The translations under genes and the position numbers were made by a program. Shown here one piece after another: positions 4,254 to 18,180 of a stretch of 64,000 nucleotides of DNA. Each line of letters begins with the position of its first letter. Positions within the stretch are counted from its first letter, which is position 1. The notes below the pieces were generated by a model that worked only from the letters and a program-made list of their open reading frames with translations, was not told where the DNA came from and did not search any database. The DNA comes from Thermodesulfobacteriota bacterium (GTDB lineage: Bacteria > Desulfobacterota_D > UBA1144 > Nemesobacterales > UBA2774): the NCBI GenBank assembly GCA_021604765.1, contig BQJP01000002.1, forward strand, positions 1 through 64,000, given 5' to 3'.

Positions 4254-6875
4254 ATGTTAGCCAAACAACTCCAGCACTGGGCAGAGACACAGCCTGAAAA
4301 GATAGCGCTTCAGATAAGAGACACCGAAGGCTCGTATTGGAGCTATACATATAAGGAACTACATGCCAACTGCTTGAAGCTGAAATCAAAGCTTAAGAAG
4401 ATGGGATATAAACCTGGTGATTATATCTCGGTCTATGGTGATAACTCACCTAACTGGGTCGTTTCATATATTGCAATCAATTTTTTAGGGGGAACGGTGA
4501 TTCCGCTTGATGCTTTGTTAGGGGCTCAGGATATATATAACTTTCTGGAATTCGCTGAAGTTAAAGCAGTTATTGTTGATGAATCGCATATCGATGAACT
4601 CGAAAAAGAATTAGAAGACAAAAGCTCTGAGATAAAAGTTATACCCATGGAGCCAACAATTAATGAGCCTGGTGAAAGTGAATCAATTAAGCCTTACAAA
4701 CCGGATCCTGATGATTTGCTTGCAATACTTTTTACATCCGGTACTACCGGAACCCCCAAAGGTGTTCAGCTTTCCAACCAAAACGTCTTCGGTAACGTAC
4801 AAGCGCTACTTAGCTCAATTGATGTGATTCAAAAGGACAATATTTTAAACATACTACCGCTTCATCACGGATACTCATCAATAGTGGCGCTCTTTTCCCC
4901 ACTCTGGACAGGAGCAACAGTAACTTTTTCAGAATCAATTAAAAGCACAGACCTCTTAGCCAGTATAAGAGAAACAGGAGTTACCATATTCCCTGGAGTG
5001 CCGAGACTATTTGAGCTCTTGTTTAACGAAATTGAAAATAGGGTCAAACGTTTACCATTTGGGCAGAAAATAATATTTAACAGTTTATATAAAATTTCAG
5101 AATCAACGTGGAAGTCCACAAATATCAGACTCGGAAAAATGTTTTTCGGAAAAGTTCATGAGCCTTTTGGAAAGCAGTTTCGCTTTTTTACTTCAGGAGG
5201 GGCAAAACTCGACCCTAAAGTGTATACCGGATTTCTGACTCTGGGATTTAAAATTGCGGAAGGATATGGACTTACGGAAACATCCGCTGTTGCAACTTTG
5301 ACATCACCCGATATTCCAAACCCTGGCAGCGCTGGGAAGCCTCTTCCAGGTGTTGATGTCAAAATCGAAAACCCCGATGAAACAGGAACTGGTGAGATTT
5401 GCTTAAGAGGGCCTAATATAATGCGGGGCTACTATAAAAACAAGGAAGCTACTAATGAGATGATAAAAGATGGATGGCTTCACTCTGGCGACCTTGGACA
5501 TGTGGATTCAGACAACAACGTATTTATTACCGGCAGGGCAAAGGAAGTAATAGTACTTCCCTCCGGGAAAAACATATATCCCGAAGATGTTGAAAACCTC
5601 TATAATAAGAGCTCTCTATTTAAAGAAATATGCGTCATAGCGCATAAATCTGCCTCAGGAAGTATAAAAGGTCTGGGAGTGGTGGTAGTGCCCAATATGA
5701 GAGAAGTCAAAGAGAGGGATGTGTTTGATGTTAGAGATAGAATTCGCTCTGTAATATCTATGGAAAGCTCAAAACTGCCTTCTTATATGCAGATATCAGA
5801 GGTATTAATCTCTAATACCGAACTACCCAAGACCAGGCTTGGCAAGTTTAAGCGAAACGAGATTGATAAGATTGCTATTCAGTTGAGGTCTGGTGATCAG
5901 CCAAAAGAGATAGAACTTAAACCACAAGAAATCGAGATACTAAATAAGCCTGAGTCAGTAAGATTCCTGGGACGTTTTTCAGAAATTACTGAAGTCAAGG
6001 GACCTTTTCATCCTAATGACGACCTTACACTCGATCTTGGAGTCGATTCACTTACTCTTGCTGAAGTTAACGCGCTTCTTGAAAGAGAATTTGGCGTATT
6101 TATACCAGAGGACGAAATTCCAAATGTGCGCAGTATTGGAGATATTTTAGAAAGGCTTCCTGAATCTCCCACAATAAATGCTGATGCCATTTCTGAAGCC
6201 AGAAAAGAGAACAACGAATCACTTGAGGATATATTTGATCTCAACCGCAACTTTGTTAAGCGAACTGCGATTAGAATTATCCAACTCTTATTGAGATTTA
6301 TTGTTTTAATTGCATTTAGATCTCGACTTAAAGATGTGAAGAAAATTCCGAGAAATAGAGCAGTCTTAATATGCCCTAATCATCAGAGCTTAATTGACCC
6401 GATTTTGATTTATGCCCTACTACCTGGGGAGATGTTAGAAAAAACTCTTTTTACCGGCTTTGGAGAGTATTTTAGCAAAGCGCCCCTTTCTTGGATAGTT
6501 CACCCGATGAGAATAATCCTCACTGGAACAGGAAGAACATCCTCTGAATCGATAAGACTCGCTTCAGAGGGATTAAATCAGGGTTATTCAGTTTGTATAT
6601 TTCCTGAAGGCGAAAGAACGAGTAGCGGAACAATCATGAAACCTCGCATTGGAGCCGGATTACTTAGCGTAGAGACTGATACGCCAATAGTTCCAATCTA
6701 TATAGAGGGTGCAACAAAAACACTGTCTCCAATCAATCCTGGCTTAAGCTTTCCAAATGTTAGAGTTACAGTGATGGAAACAATTGAACCTGCAAAAGGT
6801 GACAAAGAACCAAGAGAGTTATATCAAGACACGGTTGATGAATGGTTAGCTGCTATGGAAGAAATAGAGACATGA
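4254..6875 (+). CDS. Fused acyl-adenylate ligase, acyl carrier and PlsC acyltransferase
   Basis: An 873-residue three-part enzyme. Residues about 10-540 are an AMP-binding ligase with FTSGTTGTPKGV (about 159-170), GYGLTET (about 337) and HSGDLGHVD. Residues about 555-640 look like an acyl carrier domain with LGVDSLTLAE, whose Ser would take phosphopantetheine. Residues about 685-870 are a PlsC acyltransferase with NHQSLIDP (about 707) and FPEGERT (about 783). A hydrophobic segment near 670-690 may sit in the membrane. The likely role is to activate a fatty acid, load it on the built-in carrier and pass it to a lysophospholipid, as Aas does with domains in another order. The exact acceptor is inference. 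A GAGG lies ten bases before the ATG. Confidence 0.88.
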   Translation: MLAKQLQHWAETQPEKIALQIRDTEGSYWSYTYKELHANCLKLKSKLKKMGYKPGDYISVYGDNSPNWVVSYIAINFLGGTVIPLDALLGAQDIYNFLEFAEVKAVIVDESHIDELEKELEDKSSEIKVIPMEPTINEPGESESIKPYKPDPDDLLAILFTSGTTGTPKGVQLSNQNVFGNVQALLSSIDVIQKDNILNILPLHHGYSSIVALFSPLWTGATVTFSESIKSTDLLASIRETGVTIFPGVPRLFELLFNEIENRVKRLPFGQKIIFNSLYKISESTWKSTNIRLGKMFFGKVHEPFGKQFRFFTSGGAKLDPKVYTGFLTLGFKIAEGYGLTETSAVATLTSPDIPNPGSAGKPLPGVDVKIENPDETGTGEICLRGPNIMRGYYKNKEATNEMIKDGWLHSGDLGHVDSDNNVFITGRAKEVIVLPSGKNIYPEDVENLYNKSSLFKEICVIAHKSASGSIKGLGVVVVPNMREVKERDVFDVRDRIRSVISMESSKLPSYMQISEVLISNTELPKTRLGKFKRNEIDKIAIQLRSGDQPKEIELKPQEIEILNKPESVRFLGRFSEITEVKGPFHPNDDLTLDLGVDSLTLAEVNALLEREFGVFIPEDEIPNVRSIGDILERLPESPTINADAISEARKENNESLEDIFDLNRNFVKRTAIRIIQLLLRFIVLIAFRSRLKDVKKIPRNRAVLICPNHQSLIDPILIYALLPGEMLEKTLFTGFGEYFSKAPLSWIVHPMRIILTGTGRTSSESIRLASEGLNQGYSVCIFPEGERTSSGTIMKPRIGAGLLSVETDTPIVPIYIEGATKTLSPINPGLSFPNVRVTVMETIEPAKGDKEPRELYQDTVDEWLAAMEEIET

Positions 6876-6929: not shown

Positions 6930-7367
6930 ATGAAACTAGTTGTTACGTCCATCCTACTGTTGTGCTTTATTTCTATAAATGCGCACAGCTACGATCAATG
7001 GCTTAAGTACTATTACATGGACAAGAAAGGAAAACTAAACGGAGAAGAAGTATGTATGTCCGGTAAGGTAAAAAGAGAGAAATACGAGTGCAGTGGGATG
7101 ACTGTAGGTGGAGGAATTTGTATGGCCAGCAATGAGAAGAGAGAAAGATATCAATGCAAAAGCTTAACTCTCGGAGAAGGGATTTGCATGGCAGGGAATA
7201 TTAAAAGAGAGAAGTATGATTGCAAAGGAATGACTGTTGGGGGTGGGATTTGTATGGCTAGCAATATAAAAAGAGAAAAATATGATTGCAAAGGTCTTTC
7301 AATCAGTGAAGGAAAATGTATGGCTGATGATGTTAATAAGTCCAGGTACGAATGTAAGGGTAAATAG
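6930..7367 (+). CDS. Secreted Cys-paired tandem-repeat protein
   Basis: A 145-residue secreted protein of no recognised family. After a signal peptide (residues 1-19) come about five repeats of about 20 residues, each with the pattern G-x-CM(A/S)xxxKRE(K/R)Y-x-C(K/S)GMTVG. Each repeat holds two Cys about 11 apart, so about ten Cys in total could form a ladder of disulfides or bind metal. The repeats are also Lys/Arg rich. It lies 54 bp after the acyltransferase fusion and 52 bp before a small lipoprotein, so the three may be one transcript. A GGAGA site precedes the ATG. Function unknown. Confidence 0.75.
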   Translation: MKLVVTSILLLCFISINAHSYDQWLKYYYMDKKGKLNGEEVCMSGKVKREKYECSGMTVGGGICMASNEKRERYQCKSLTLGEGICMAGNIKREKYDCKGMTVGGGICMASNIKREKYDCKGLSISEGKCMADDVNKSRYECKGK

Positions 7368-8737: not shown

Positions 8738-9208
8738 ATGAAGACTCTAATTATCATTATAGTATTGATTGTCCTAGTAATAGCCTGGTATTTGTTCCGA
8801 CCTGAAAAACTTTTAATTAGCTCAAAAGTTAACGAAGATTTCCCTGAGGCTGATTCCGGGCAGTCAGAGATTATCTTTGAAGGAAACTTCAAGCCTGTGG
8901 CCCATGACGGAGAGGGTCTTGCTACTATATACGATATGGGAGACGGCAACCGTGTGATGAGGTTCACCGACTTTGCAGTTTCAAACGGACCTGATGTTCA
9001 TGTATATCTGGTATCGGCACCAGACCCCATGGACAGCAAAACCGTGAAAGAATCTGAGATTTACGAGCTTGGACCTATTAAAGGTAACGTTGGAAACCAG
9101 AACTATGATTTAGGACCCGATGTTGATCTGGACAAGTTCAAATCAGTTGTTATCTGGTGCAAAAGATTTGGTGTTAATTTTGCAGTAGCTCAGCTAGAGC
9201 CTAGATAA
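8738..9208 (+). CDS. Membrane-anchored DM13-domain protein
   Basis: A 156-residue protein with one N-terminal membrane helix (residues 3-20) and an outside DM13 domain. Visible DM13 features are the PVAHDGEG turn, the FTDFAVSNGPDVHVYLV strand and the closing VVIWCKRFGVNFAVAQL, whose Cys is conserved in the family. DM13 is predicted to be a redox or electron-transfer domain; no partner is encoded next to it. A GGGAGG site precedes the ATG. A hairpin overlaps the stop codon. Confidence 0.85.
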   Translation: MKTLIIIIVLIVLVIAWYLFRPEKLLISSKVNEDFPEADSGQSEIIFEGNFKPVAHDGEGLATIYDMGDGNRVMRFTDFAVSNGPDVHVYLVSAPDPMDSKTVKESEIYELGPIKGNVGNQNYDLGPDVDLDKFKSVVIWCKRFGVNFAVAQLEPR

Positions 9209-9216
9209 GGCTCTAG
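9194..9216 (+). terminator. Hairpin overlapping the DM13 stop codon
   Basis: CTAGAGCC and GGCTCTAG form a perfect 8-bp stem with a 7-base loop that contains the stop codon. There is no T run after it, so it may act as a weak terminator or an mRNA 3' end rather than a classic one. Confidence 0.45.
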
Positions 9217-9236
9217 GCATCACTATATATACCTTA

Positions 9237-9265
9237 TTGACAAGAATTTCTATATATAATATAAT
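9237..9265 (+). promoter_or_regulatory. Perfect consensus sigma-70 promoter
   Basis: TTGACA at 9237-9242 and TATAAT at 9260-9265 are separated by exactly 17 bases. Both hexamers match the consensus fully, so strong constitutive transcription would start near 9272, at the beginning of the structured region below. Confidence 0.8.
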
Positions 9266-9271
9266 CGAAAT

Positions 9272-9452
9272 TGCACATAGGGTAGATGATCGGCAAACAG
9301 ATATGAGCAGGGGTAGTTCCCCCTGCTACGTCTATCGGGGAGTCCGGTGGGTGCTGTTTGTTCCGTTTATTAGAAGATCTGCCACAAAGTCTGGGCCGAC
9401 AGATTTTTTGTTGAACCGGCGGGGAAGTTCGGCTCTTCCCCGTGCCTGAACT
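9272..9452 (+). ncRNA. Candidate structured small RNA or structured 5' leader
   Basis: Behind the consensus promoter lies a run of nested stems. CAAACAG (9294-9300) pairs with CTGTTTG (9354-9360) and encloses the perfect hairpin AGCAGGGG/CCCCTGCT. Next, AGATCTG pairs with CAGATTT and runs straight into TTTTTTG, a terminator-like end near 9408. A third hairpin, GGC-GGGGAAG/CTTCCCC-GT-GCC (9418-9446), ends about a dozen bases before the next start codon. No known riboswitch or housekeeping RNA was recognised: it lacks the SRP GGAAG core and the cobalamin box. It could be a free RNA of about 140 bases, or an attenuating leader for the Tat lipoprotein. Confidence 0.5.
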
Positions 9453-9458
9453 AATAAT

Positions 9459-9800
9459 ATGTCTATATACGATATTACAAGAAGGAAGTTTTTACAGCTA
9501 AGCAGCGCTGTAGCCGCGACAGCTTTTATTGGTATTTCCTGTGACGGAGGAGATGGGAACCAATCTGGCTCCGATCAAGCTGTAATGGTTTACCGCTTAT
9601 CTGTCAGGGGAAGAAGAGGGTCTAATGCTTCAAAGAAACATAATGCAAATCATCTGTTCTTAACACCTGAAGCAGCAGATCAAAACAGAGCCCACCCAGG
9701 TGATAGATCGCGTATAGTTTCAGTTGTAATAAGTGAATCCAGGTTTAATCAACTTTTTAATGGTGGTGCTGTGGAAGTTGCTGATTTAAGGGACTTCTAG
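9459..9800 (+). CDS. Small Tat-exported lipoprotein of unknown function
   Basis: A 113-residue protein. The N-terminus TRRKFLQLSSAVAATAF is a twin-arginine signal, followed by a lipobox-like GISC, so it is probably exported folded and lipidated. The mature part contains a basic RGRRGSNASKKHNANHLF segment and a Pro/Asp turn (EAADQNRAHPGDRSR), which I do not recognise. There is no ribosome-binding site; the start follows directly after the last hairpin of the structured RNA, so its translation could depend on that RNA. Confidence 0.7.
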   Translation: MSIYDITRRKFLQLSSAVAATAFIGISCDGGDGNQSGSDQAVMVYRLSVRGRRGSNASKKHNANHLFLTPEAADQNRAHPGDRSRIVSVVISESRFNQLFNGGAVEVADLRDF

Positions 9801-9835
9801 ATTTGATCACTCACACAATTCTCTAAGTAGCAATC

Positions 9836-12313: not shown

Positions 12314-15300
12314 TTAGTAATTCATCTTGACTCTTCTTCTAAGCAGGACAGCGGCTGGGATTAATCCATAAATAAGTAGTCCGGCTAATCCGCCTTTTAC
12401 ACTGCCAGAACCAGCGATAGCGCATGAACCGTCGCTTGTACTTTCTGAGTCATCTCCACCACCGTCACCAGGTGGATCTGTAGGGTTCGAATCAGCTATA
12501 TCCAAATGATCCGGCAATCCGTCTCCGTCGGTATCTAATATTATGCATGGCGAACCAGTTCCCGGATGCACACTATCAGCAAGACCATCATTATTCTCAT
12601 CTGCTGAATCATCATGAATACCATCGTCATTTGCATCTATACAACCAGCTGTTTCATTCGTATCTGTCAGACCGTCTCCATCTGAGTCCTTATCCAGGAA
12701 GTCTGGAGTACCATCTGCGTCAGTATCATGCAGGGGCAGGGCAACTCCTCCCTGATCTGTATCATGCGCGTCGTGAAGACCATCGGCATCAGAATCTACA
12801 AAATTATCAGAGGTGCCATCACTATTAGCATCGTTAATTCCGCCAGCTTCAAAGTGGTCAGGAAGCCCGTCGCCGTCAGAATCCAGATCGAGTTCATTTG
12901 GAATGCCATCCCCGTCAGGGTCAGCCGGTATTTCCATCCTAGTTGATGTAGAAGGATCCACTCCGTTGGTAGCAGTTTCCATATTGTCGGGTATGCCGTC
13001 ATTATCTGAATCAACATCAACACCATTAGCTACACCATCGCCGTCGGCGTCAGTTGGACCTCCACCGCCTCCTCCAGGAGGTGGTGTTGGTGTCGGAGGA
13101 TTCGTAGGAGATGGACCTCCGCCGCCAGGAGGGTCTGTGCAGAATTTTGGATCATCTACAGGGGTACCTTCGCATGAACCGGCGATAGTGCCCGCAGTAT
13201 CTAAAGTGATATCCCATGGAGCTTCTTTCGGAAAGCACTTAGGATCAGGTCTGTGACCGTCTCTAGTACTGATTAAAATATTACCTTTATCATCTGGAAC
13301 GAAACTGTTTGGAAGCGTGATAGAAAAACCCGGACATCCCTCAAGTGGGCAATCTATATCTTTACCTACCCACTTACCGCATATGTTGCCTGCCTCGCAA
13401 GCAGCTTTATCGTCCCCAGTAAGGTTACTTGAGCATACGCATTGGTCTCCTTGTGGGGTGCAGAAGCTTGAGGGCTGGCAAAAATCTAATTCGGCAGCTT
13501 TGTATTGGCCTTCAAAACTTTTCATATCCACCGTTACTGTTAGAATCCCCGTACCCGGATTGTAGCTTCTAAACCATCCTATGTCCTCATCATTCCACAT
13601 AACTTTTGGGTCTGTCGAAAATGTTATTGGGAAGGTTGCGATATTAGCTCTTTGAGCACTAACAATCTCCGGGTTGTCCGGATTAATAGTAGAATCTATC
13701 CCCACATAAAATTGATATGTCTGTTTGGATGAAGCCTTAGTGTAGAGGAAATATGTATAAAAAGTATCTCCTCCTTTAAATACGTTTAGACTCTTGGCAC
13801 TTTTTCTCTGCTCAGCTTCCGAAACAGTAGTGTTTACAAGGTAAGTTGCGTGGTTAAGCGTCATCATGCTTCTCTGATAGAGATCCATCCCAGCCATTCG
13901 TATTCCCGTAGTTGATAGATCTTTGGCATCTTTCGTGGTTAAAAGCTGGCGCTCAAGCGGAACACCGTAGCAGTCTGTATTGGTACAAGGTCTTCCCCAT
14001 GTAGCGCTGCACGTCCCAGATAAATCACAGTCAGCCGGAGTTGTGCAGCTTTTGCTACCGTCGTTTGTGCACTTGTTGTTAACACAGTTTCCTTCATTAG
14101 CACACTCCCCACCCCATGAGCATACGGCGCCCGTGTTTGAACAAGTTCCCAAGCAAGTGTTGTTTGTGGCGCACTTAGGATATATAGCCGTTGTTAGGTA
14201 TTCGTACGGGCTGGTTTTAGCAGTATCAAATGACTTACACTCTGTGGCTTCAATCGGAGTATTAAAAAACGGATCGAGGTTCACGGAAATGCTCTCTACA
14301 AACTCACTACTAACAAGCCCTGTAAGCGAGCCGTCATCATCGTTTACCACAGTCTGACGGTCAACGCTGCTGAAACTGCCAAAAGTGTTTTCTGCATTAA
14401 AGCGGCAGTAATCCTCTCTTAATTTAACCTCGTCTGTTTTAAATGTTCCCGGTAACCACAAAGGCTCAAGAACATAGTGGCGTATATTTACATTATTAAA
14501 GAATAGACCGTCTGAGTGGAAAGCGGGCGGATAGTAAAAACCGTTTGGCTGCTTCCACCCTATAGCCGCATTGGGCAGAACACACGTATCGGTCATCTTC
14601 TCAGGAGTTCTAGATTTATCAACAGGTATACCTATTGTTCGAGTGTACATCCACTCCGGCTTTCCTGTAAAAACAGGAGTGGATCCAAACTGAGGACAAT
14701 TGCCTTTGCCCGGGGTACAAAGTGGTCCGAGTTGAGTTTCCACTATGTCCAGATAACCAACTTTGTCTTGAAAGTTAGGCCCGTCGTAGATGTTAAACAT
14801 GCGCTGATTCACCGCAAAATTATCAATCGGCATACTTATACCTTCTTTTGCCGATCTGCAGTGGTTGGTATCGCCGCTGTCGCAAGTAAGTCCTTTAACT
14901 TTACCGTCAGCACTCATTAGAGGGTTAAACGGTCCTGCGTTTGATGTAAAAGGGTTATCCTTTTGAGTTTCGCCTACAAATACTGATCTTGTAGCAAGCT
15001 GCCATTGACCGGGAACTACGTTTGAAAGTGTATAGTCTCCTCCGGTAACAAAACCAAGCCCGCCGTTCTGGGAATCTGAAAGAAAGCTGTTAACGTAAAG
15101 GTACCACTGTGGGCGGAGCCATATTGCCGCAAAATTCTGCTGAGGCCAGTGAAATGATGAAGTGTATTTATCAAGCACAGTTACCATGCAATTATCACGG
15201 TTGCCTGTGCTACATCTGTTGAGAATTTTACTTGGCCCGCAGTCCGTACCGTCACATTTTGTAGCAAATCTACCGCCGCCAGCTGTAACTTTAGGATAAA

Positions 15301-18073
15301 AAGTCTCTTTATTTTGATCCATTTTTCCGCCCTCTGCGGTAGGCAGCACTGCCGGCACAGGCGCGTTGGGGTTAGTAGCAGGACCTAACGTATTTAAACC
15401 CAGACAATCATCTGTAGCTCCGACTGTATTAAAAGACATCATGGCTGATGAACAGTAATTACCCTTAAAGGTTCTAAGAGGAGTCATTCCGGCGCGGCCC
15501 ATATTAACCTCATACGTTTCGCCGGCTTCAGTCATGATCTGGCCTGTCTGCATAGATGCATAGGAATCCCATTTCCTACCCTGTGAAGGTCCGCTGTTCG
15601 TACCTGGAACAAGCCAGTAACATACTCCGCAACCGGTCGCTCCGGCTGCCACATTATATTCAAAATCGTTCCATCCGTTCATTATCCAGAAAACTGTCGG
15701 ATTAAAAATATCCGAGTTGTATGGGACGAAAGCAGTGTTAGGACTTCCGGCCCAGGCTAAAATGCCCGGAACCTGTCTTGGATTCTGATCATTTTTTACA
15801 GCCGCACGGGCAAGAATTCCAAGATTTGAATAAAGTTTGTTATTGATCTCAGTTCCATCTTCAAGATAAAACCCGTGCCCGATTGACATACAGCCAACAT
15901 TTCTGGCCAATGTCACGCCTTGAGCGCCGTGTAAAGTAATCCATCTAGTCATGGAATCAGTTATAGAAGAGTCTTTGACAAATGTTCCTTCAGGGGTCTT
16001 TCTAGTTTGATGGAAATGCACGGGATAGTGCCCTAACTTGCCACCCTGACCAAGCTGATGAAACTGAACTCCCTGTACTTTAAACTCTTTAACACCCTGG
16101 CGAACCATAGTGTGTCCTCCAAGATGGTTTCCGGGTGTTGGAGGAAAATCAGACATAAATGTACCGCCAGCCGAGACTATCATAATGCTTCGTGACAACA
16201 GTCCCACAGCAGCTCTTGTCTCAGCAGCAGGCTGTCCATTGACCTTTATGTCTATACAGTCTTTGTTCTTGTCACAATCTTTCAGGTTGTCTGGCAGTCT
16301 GTCTAAAGAATATGGGGTACCGTTATGAGGATACTGGAGTCCCGGTCCCTCGGGGTGATCAATTCCCTTAAATTGATCGATCAATTTAAATTTAAATGTG
16401 GTTGCACTAACAACTTCAGTTATTTCTACAACTTCTGAATGTCCCGGCAAATAGTCTGTTGATGTAATAACTATTCGGTCACCTACTCCCCAATCTACCG
16501 CCTTGTTTACTGTAAGTTGAGTTGCCTCTATTCCTACATCACCATCGAGCCTTGCCCAGCTCATGCCTGAATTGTCAGAATCTAGATTATCAGGAAGCGT
16601 CGAGCCTTTCTTCCCAAACATTCTGAGTGTGCCGCCGTATGAAACTCCAAGCACCTTGTAGCCGAAGTAGGCGTTAGGGTCGCCGTCATCCTGAGGCAGC
16701 GGTTTATATTGATAGAAATAATCCTCGACCATTCCGGGGAGCATTTGTGGACTTGAGCCGTTTGAGTTCCATACACCTATCGGAATACCGCAAGGTCCGA
16801 CTGTTGCAGACGTGGGGGTTTTGCATGGAACACCCGATCCTCCGACACCCTGATTTTCACCGTACAAATGTATTGTCAGCTTACCGTTCATACCTATTGG
16901 GTCAGTATCCGAGCCCGCAATCAGGCTGCCTTTATATTCAACGATTATGCCATACGCCCAGAAATCTATTACCTCGTCTTTAAAAGTCAGTGAAGCATTA
17001 TCACCATAAATATTCACGTTTCTGTAATGGTATGTACCCGCTTTAACTGTACAGGGACCAGTAACTTTAAGGTCTTCACCACTACCAGGAAGAATATCGC
17101 CCGAAGTACATTCGAGCTCTGCTACAACAGCATCATGAACCCTAGGGTCGGTATTAAGTCCGGAATCTTGTTTCTGAGGACTATCTGTAGGCATAAGCGC
17201 ACCGACAATCGCGGCGCTTGAGAAATCGGCACCTGTGGTGTCTGCATTCTCCAGATTCGCCATACTAAGATCAGCATCTGAGAGATCGGAATTAATTAAT
17301 ATTGCATTTGTAAGATCAGCGCCAGATAAATTTGCGCCTCTTAAGTTAGCCCTGCTTAGATCAGCGTTTATTAAGCTTGCACCGCTAAGGTTTGCATCAA
17401 TCAAAATTACATCTACCAATATGGCGTTGTCTAAAATCGCATTACTCAAATCTACACCGCTTAAATCTAAGCCATTTAGATTTATGCCGTTTAGATCACA
17501 ACCTATACATTTATTACTATTTAAGACCGATGTCATATTTTGGAGCGCTTCATCAGATGCTGTGCTTAGAAGAGATTTATCAACACCCGCAACTATGAAG
17601 ACAGCCACTCTTTCATCTGATTTGCCGTCGTGACGAATATGCATTTCATAGTCCCCTTCGCCTAGAGTAGTGGTAACACAAACTCCTGCAGCCTCGACTG
17701 TAAAGACTTCTGCGCCTTCAGTATCGAAGAGAGTCATAGAGTGCTCTGCGGATTCATTGTCGTCGTCCCAGCAGAACGTCTGTTCTATAGCTTCTGTATA
17801 TTTGTAAGGGATGATGTCAAGACCAATCGCACCAGTGTCGTTTTCTTCATCGGCTGCTGATGGCGGCTCTAAGAATGTCGCAACAATCCCACCTTCAGGA
17901 AACGCGGATAACTCTGGATCCCGGGCAAAGTCGCTCTCGGTAAGTACACCCGCTGATTGATCCGGTGAGCTTCTAACGAGTTTGGTAAAGGTAAAAACCC
18001 CGCCAAAGACAAAGAGTATCGCAAGAAGTATAGTTAATTCTGATTTGCCTATTGCAGTCCTGAACTTAGACAT
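12314..18073 (-). CDS. Giant G8/beta-helix surface protein with pentapeptide and TSP3-type repeats
   Basis: A 1919-residue surface protein. Residues 1-36 are a signal anchor. About 188-286 are pentapeptide repeats (A/N-x-[12 protein letters not shown]). About 328-400 are a G8 domain. About 650-745 are parallel beta-helix repeats with PVHFH, WITLHG and [14 protein letters not shown], the pattern seen in CEMIP/PKHD1L1 proteins. About 1300-1365 are a Cys-rich insert absent from the paralog next door. About 1670-1865 are Asp-rich TSP3-type calcium repeats (DTDGDGLPD). The end is a lone Cys (GSCAIAG), a hydrophobic helix and RRR, a sorting-signal shape. I start at 18073, after G6, not at the leader ATG at 18136. 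Binding or cleaving of polysaccharide is inferred from the family. Confidence 0.88.
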
Positions 18074-18102
18074 TGAAAAATCCCCCCTTTTTTTCAAATG
18101 AA

Positions 18103-18180
18103 CCATCCACTCATATAATCTACGTTTTAAGAACATAGATTAGATTAGTATTATAATAGTTTAACTGAGTTTTTGGAAGG
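18103..18180 (-). promoter_or_regulatory. Shared promoter and hairpin leader, copy 1
   Basis: On the minus strand TTCCAA (18173-18178), 17 bases, then TATAAT (18150-18155). Downstream, ATCTATGT and ACGTAGAT form an 8-bp hairpin, followed by the conserved stretch TTATATGAGTGG. The same arrangement occurs upstream of the second G8 gene and the M23-like operon. Confidence 0.8.

Follow-up and report, generated by a model that had tools for sequence, protein, structure and literature searches.

A conserved structured RNA lies directly upstream of a gene for an orphan Tat-signal protein in the window, the whole 64,000-nucleotide (64-kb) stretch of Dadabacteria DNA analysed here. Comparison of seven sequences indicates that the feature is a genuine conserved RNA, which spans positions 9273–9445 and adopts a nested four-way junction formed by helices P0–P3 plus an arm with P4–P6. 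It is best read as a new, narrowly distributed class of 5′ leader, in kind an orphan structured leader. The RNA and the exported-protein gene very probably work together, and the RNA most likely controls the gene. That it belongs to a new leader family controlling translation of this protein is the reading we prefer, at a probability of roughly 55%. The elements of the locus are as follows.

9237–9265, + strand: sigma70-type promoter, TTGACA-N17-TATAAT; 7/7 copies have a near-consensus promoter in this position
9273–9276, + strand: 5′ strand of P0, GCAC, at the predicted +1; pairs with 9442–9445, with 4/4 pairs kept in 7/7 copies
9277–9280, + strand: P0/P1 junction, ATAG in the window and AAAG in the five copies besides the window and G010 (from the alignment)
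9281–9287, + strand: 5′ strand of P1, GGTAGAT; pairs with 9377–9383, with double changes at 6/7 pairs
9292–9298, + strand: 5′ strand of P4; pairs with 9356–9362, with double changes at 5/7 pairs (model-based alignment)
9306–9327, + strand: P5 hairpin of the variable arm, from the minimum-energy fold; differs among homologues
9329–9353, + strand: P6 hairpin of the variable arm, from the minimum-energy fold and the RNAalifold consensus
9356–9362, + strand: 3′ strand of P4 (model-based alignment)
9377–9383, + strand: 3′ strand of P1, ATCTGCC, from covariation
9384–9388, + strand: P1/P2 junction, ACAAA in the window and GCAAA in 5/7 copies; CAAA is invariant
9389–9420, + strand: P2, with lower stem GUCUGG/CCGGC containing a bulge, a GC/AA internal loop and the upper hairpin P2b
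9421–9441, + strand: P3 hairpin, GGGGAA/UUCCCC (GGGGAG/CUCCCU in L025), with a conserved CGG loop motif, from covariation
9442–9445, + strand: 3′ strand of P0, GTGC, from covariation
9446–9458, + strand: A/U-rich tail CTGAACTAATAAT between P0 and the start codon, without a Shine–Dalgarno sequence
9459–9800, + strand: 113-amino-acid Tat-signal protein of an orphan family; in every copy it follows the RNA directly

Promoter and architecture of the RNA

The promoter consists of TTGACA (9237–9242) and TATAAT (9260–9265) separated by a 17-nt spacer. It scores 12/12 against the sigma70 consensus, as the preliminary description of this DNA had stated, and no other site in the window matches perfectly; with one mismatch allowed, the window holds 4 sites against 0.73 expected. 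P0 starts 7 nt after TATAAT in the window copy and 7–8 nt after it across all seven copies. This near-consensus promoter at a fixed distance places the beginning of P0 at about +1, a transcription start predicted from promoter geometry.

P0 is GCAC/GUGC in the window and G010 and GCAG/CUGC in the remaining five copies. The three strong stem regions noted initially are real, but they belong together in a single nested four-way junction and are not separate hairpins. The run of six T residues, described at first as the end of a stem, forms the loop of P2b (9397–9413), whose stem covaries as CGACA/UGUUG, CGAUU/AAUCG and CGACC/GGUCG. A terminator at this run was rejected, since a covarying hairpin holds the run in its loop and several homologues lack it; it does not supply the terminator of its own that would mark a free-standing small RNA. 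At the end of the RNA, no terminator-like T run is conserved across the seven copies.

Conservation and covariation

Compensatory changes in relatives, which the preliminary description proposed looking for, are present. The alignment comprises the window copy and six homologues. When aligned with MAFFT, 97.4% of pair cells hold standard pairs and 13/28 pairs show double changes, a result matched by 0/500 shuffles, and sliding the partners as a control lowers pairing to 37–49%. A model-based alignment, which leans toward the structure, gives double changes at 15/34 pairs. Run unguided on five sequences, RNAalifold recovers the same four-way junction. The RNA thus has the conserved secondary structure with compensatory changes characteristic of a 5′ cis-regulatory leader.

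A covariance model trained on the five closer copies, without loci L025 and L019, detects L025 at an E-value of 1.4e-23 and L019 at 5.4e-19. Both loci had been located through the protein, so that the RNA found upstream of each is independent evidence. Folding energies say less. The region 9237–9470 is more stable than expected (z = −2.8, with 2/200 shuffles equally stable), and the minimum-energy fold of the window sequence contains every helix of the junction. Single-sequence folds of G014, G028 and G058 partly prefer other structures, and the case for the structure therefore rests on covariation and not on energies.

A coding reading of the segment was rejected: the homologous RNAs measure 187, 186, 185, 181, 177, 240 and 167 nt, and neither lengths nor frames upstream of the ATG are conserved among the seven homologues. 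This agrees with the first assessment that nothing convincing is coded there.

The downstream protein and its start codon

The protein is 108–115 amino acids long among homologues and carries the conserved stretches RGRRGSNAAKxHNAN and NRAHPGDNSRIV. Its assignment as a Tat lipoprotein stood in part. The Tat motif (TIGR01409) scores above cut-off in the window and L005 and just below it in L003. The lipoprotein label is tentative because the lipobox is weak: a cysteine is present in the Dadabacteria copies but the motif around it is poor, and L025 lacks the cysteine. Pfam and NCBIfam contain no family for the protein beyond its signal, a PDB sequence search returned no relative, and the best PDB fold match to its AlphaFold model (pLDDT 69) had an E-value no better than 0.6, with none convincing.

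Between the end of the last helix (9445) and the ATG at 9459 lie 13 nt, in keeping with the gap of about a dozen bases first reported. This gap is 13–17 nt in five copies, 24 nt in G028 and about 32 nt in L025, and the start of P0 lies 176–188 nt from the start codon in 6/7 copies. The ribosome-binding site was correctly described as missing. The Shine–Dalgarno energy at this ATG is −1.7 kcal/mol, compared with a median of −5.6 at the first ATG of 34 long open reading frames of the window, 53% of which reach −4 or better. Shine–Dalgarno sequences are absent at the start codons of all six Dadabacteria copies. The Acidobacteria copy (L025) starts with TTG and has an SD-like GAGGA.

The tail sequence CUGAAC could base-pair with GUUCGG in the P3 loop, which suggests a possible pseudoknot (helix 77% paired). 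The pairing is complete in the window and G015, comprises five pairs in G014 and includes one compensated pair difference; it does not hold in G028, and in others it is interrupted. With this partial support, we treat it as a lead only. An earlier pseudoknot idea, GGGCC with the P3 loop, was dropped when sequence changes were found to break the pairing. Predicted accessibility of the start site gave no consistent on/off pattern among the copies.

Distribution and genomic setting

The six further copies comprise five from Dadabacteria, spread over two families within a single order, and one from an Acidobacteria metagenome-assembled genome (MAG). A DNA search of related genomes located G010, G015, G014 and G008; G028, which belongs to a different family of that order, came from a protein search. 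A protein-alignment search of a public genome collection recovered four of these copies and one more, in an Acidobacteria groundwater MAG, where the same RNA again precedes the protein gene. We rejected a misbinned contig as the source of the Acidobacteria copy, as its tetranucleotide correlation is 0.93 with its own genome and 0.29–0.63 with Dadabacteria.

In all seven copies the RNA lies just upstream of the same protein gene and on the same strand. The RNA model and the intact gene occur together in the same 6/58 Dadabacteria genomes and the same 1/396 Acidobacteriota genomes, and among these genomes the RNA was never found without the gene. Three extra weak partial matches in Dadabacteria (E about 0.18–0.2) were taken as chance. 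The window genome has a single RNA copy, and 162 genomes of the class of the Acidobacteria copy yielded only the copy already known. A pattern scan of viral sequences gave 13 matches, all judged chance by model and inspection; viral contigs scanned for the protein gave none, and plasmids and phages gave nothing meaningful.

Six other genomes belong to the window's genus, and none of them has the cassette. One of them, G005 (L054), offers a natural empty site, in which the end of the DM13 gene abuts the end of an amino-acid permease gene (compare 9209–9835 in the window) and the whole promoter–RNA–protein cassette is missing. The downstream permease is common to the window and G010, neighbours differ in other genera, and no flanking direct repeats were seen around the cassette. 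This distribution would be accounted for by vertical descent with repeated loss, combined with either deep ancestry or one or more transfers across phyla. The protein search also found a decayed gene in G009 (L020:1501–1653), which is interrupted by an internal stop and not preceded by any convincing RNA match; this remnant suggests that RNA and protein gene decay together.

Several neighbouring genes of the window were recorded. A DM13 electron-transfer domain protein (8738–9208, + strand; PF10517, E 8.8e-23) lies just upstream of the promoter. At 6930–7367 (+ strand) is a 145-amino-acid, secreted-looking protein with cysteine-containing repeats of about 22 residues (CKGMTVGGGICMASNIKREKYD) and no Pfam match, a homologue of which occurs near DM13 in G004 (L006:2356–2793). 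An 873-amino-acid open reading frame (4254–6875, + strand) is by eye a putative fusion of AMP-dependent ligase, acyl carrier and acyltransferase. On the − strand, 12314–18136 encodes a 1940-amino-acid protein that has a pentapeptide-like stretch towards its N terminus and calcium-binding-like DxDxDG repeats in its C-terminal part; G010 has a similar protein close to the cassette, and one in G004 is similar N-terminally but has RTX-like repeats.

Relation to known RNAs

Rfam 15 at gathering score gave no match for the RNA segment of the window or for any of five homologous loci, and at E ≤ 10 four copies returned unrelated noise only, bearing out the initial failure to place the RNA in a known class. 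Across the whole window Rfam reported one tRNA only. No report of such an RNA was found in an open-access subset of the literature, which is weak evidence.

Two resemblances were considered and rejected as signs of membership. The strand GCAAAG..C..GGGCC looks like part of the core of the c-di-GMP-I riboswitch (GEMM, RF01051). No match to that family appeared at E ≤ 10 in four copies, and the four-way junction differs from the GEMM fold. Similarly, AAAG-U-C..GGGC with GAACCGGC looks like the P4 strands of bacterial RNase P RNA (RF00010). This family also gave no match at E ≤ 10, and a separate, normal rnpB is present in the window's genome and in 15/16 genomes of its family overall. The corresponding stretch of the relatives' RNase P RNA differs, as does the topology.

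Stabilisers of the ompA 5′ UTR type carry a paired 5′ end right where transcription starts. The present RNA resembles them in pairing its 5′ end at the predicted start and departs from them in having a conserved multi-helix junction and unpaired residues conserved across phyla. A likeness in genetic arrangement is seen with the yjdF motif riboswitch, a structured leader found almost exclusively before one gene of unknown function (PMC4793209). As with that motif, the single gene of unknown function does not allow the ligand to be guessed from context. The present RNA differs in matching no Rfam family, in its far narrower distribution, in a structure that starts at the predicted +1 and in Dadabacteria genes without a Shine–Dalgarno sequence.

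Discussion

The preliminary description left the choice between an abundant small RNA and a control element for the lipoprotein gene. Strict coupling to the gene and the lack of a terminator favour the control element, without proving it, and disfavour a free-standing small RNA. A related view is that a dual-purpose or trans-acting abundant small RNA binds protein or RNA, with the exported-protein gene co-transcribed behind it as a partner. Such an RNA would suit the near-consensus promoters of all seven copies, a structure beginning at +1, weak translation signals downstream and junction sequences more conserved than a stabiliser needs. We nevertheless consider it unlikely, given that no terminator-like T run is conserved at the end of the RNA, that the gap to the ATG is short and fixed and that the RNA was never found without the gene. 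Somewhat more improbable still is a passive 5′ stabiliser or translation-start enhancer, in which the paired 5′ end would protect the message in the manner of the ompA 5′ UTR with no sensing. P0 does pair the very 5′ end of a very stable structure, and a strong promoter with a start at +1 would also suit it, yet the conservation of unpaired CAAA, the CGG loop and AAC across two phyla goes beyond the needs of stability.

The RNA might be a ribozyme or another RNA machine, either self-cleaving or belonging to a mobile cassette, with the companion protein carried along; this would account for the patchy distribution, the presence or absence of the cassette between the same neighbours in G005 and the differing neighbours between genera. 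Several observations make it very unlikely: direct repeats do not flank the cassette, no transposase was recognised among the adjacent open reading frames examined, no known ribozyme model matches, and the synteny kept between the window and G010 points to vertical inheritance and loss. That ordinary intergenic DNA folds this way by chance, for which the modest z-score taken alone might speak, is refuted by the covariation controls, with cross-phylum detection and gene linkage also against it, and the probability of this reading is negligible.

For the preferred reading, a leader that controls translation, we propose the following model. Transcription would start from the sigma70 promoter at the first base of P0, and the leader would fold into the four-way junction with its conserved A-rich junctions (AAAG, GCAAA) and conserved CGG loop. 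The message would run on into the Tat-exported protein gene, which lacks a Shine–Dalgarno sequence, and the leader would govern how that gene is translated. One of its folds, with a ligand, an ion or a protein perhaps stabilising it, may alter how accessible the A/U-rich start region is; the P3-loop/tail pairing, which would involve the strand beside the ATG, is a possible means. Because only one gene is ever found downstream, the context gives no clue to the ligand. A broader and more tentative proposal, which we regard as possible though doubtful, is that the RNA and its dedicated exported protein form a two-part unit, in which the RNA either detects a new ligand or is itself active, the cassette being common to Dadabacteria and Acidobacteriota.

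An RNA structure that is well supported, uncatalogued and linked to just one orphan exported protein is a rare entry to unknown signals or chemistry. With a predicted 5′ end, a structure, a partner gene and a natural empty site all at hand, reporter and probing experiments can be planned immediately. The finding also means that uncultured phyla contain RNA classes missing from the public library.
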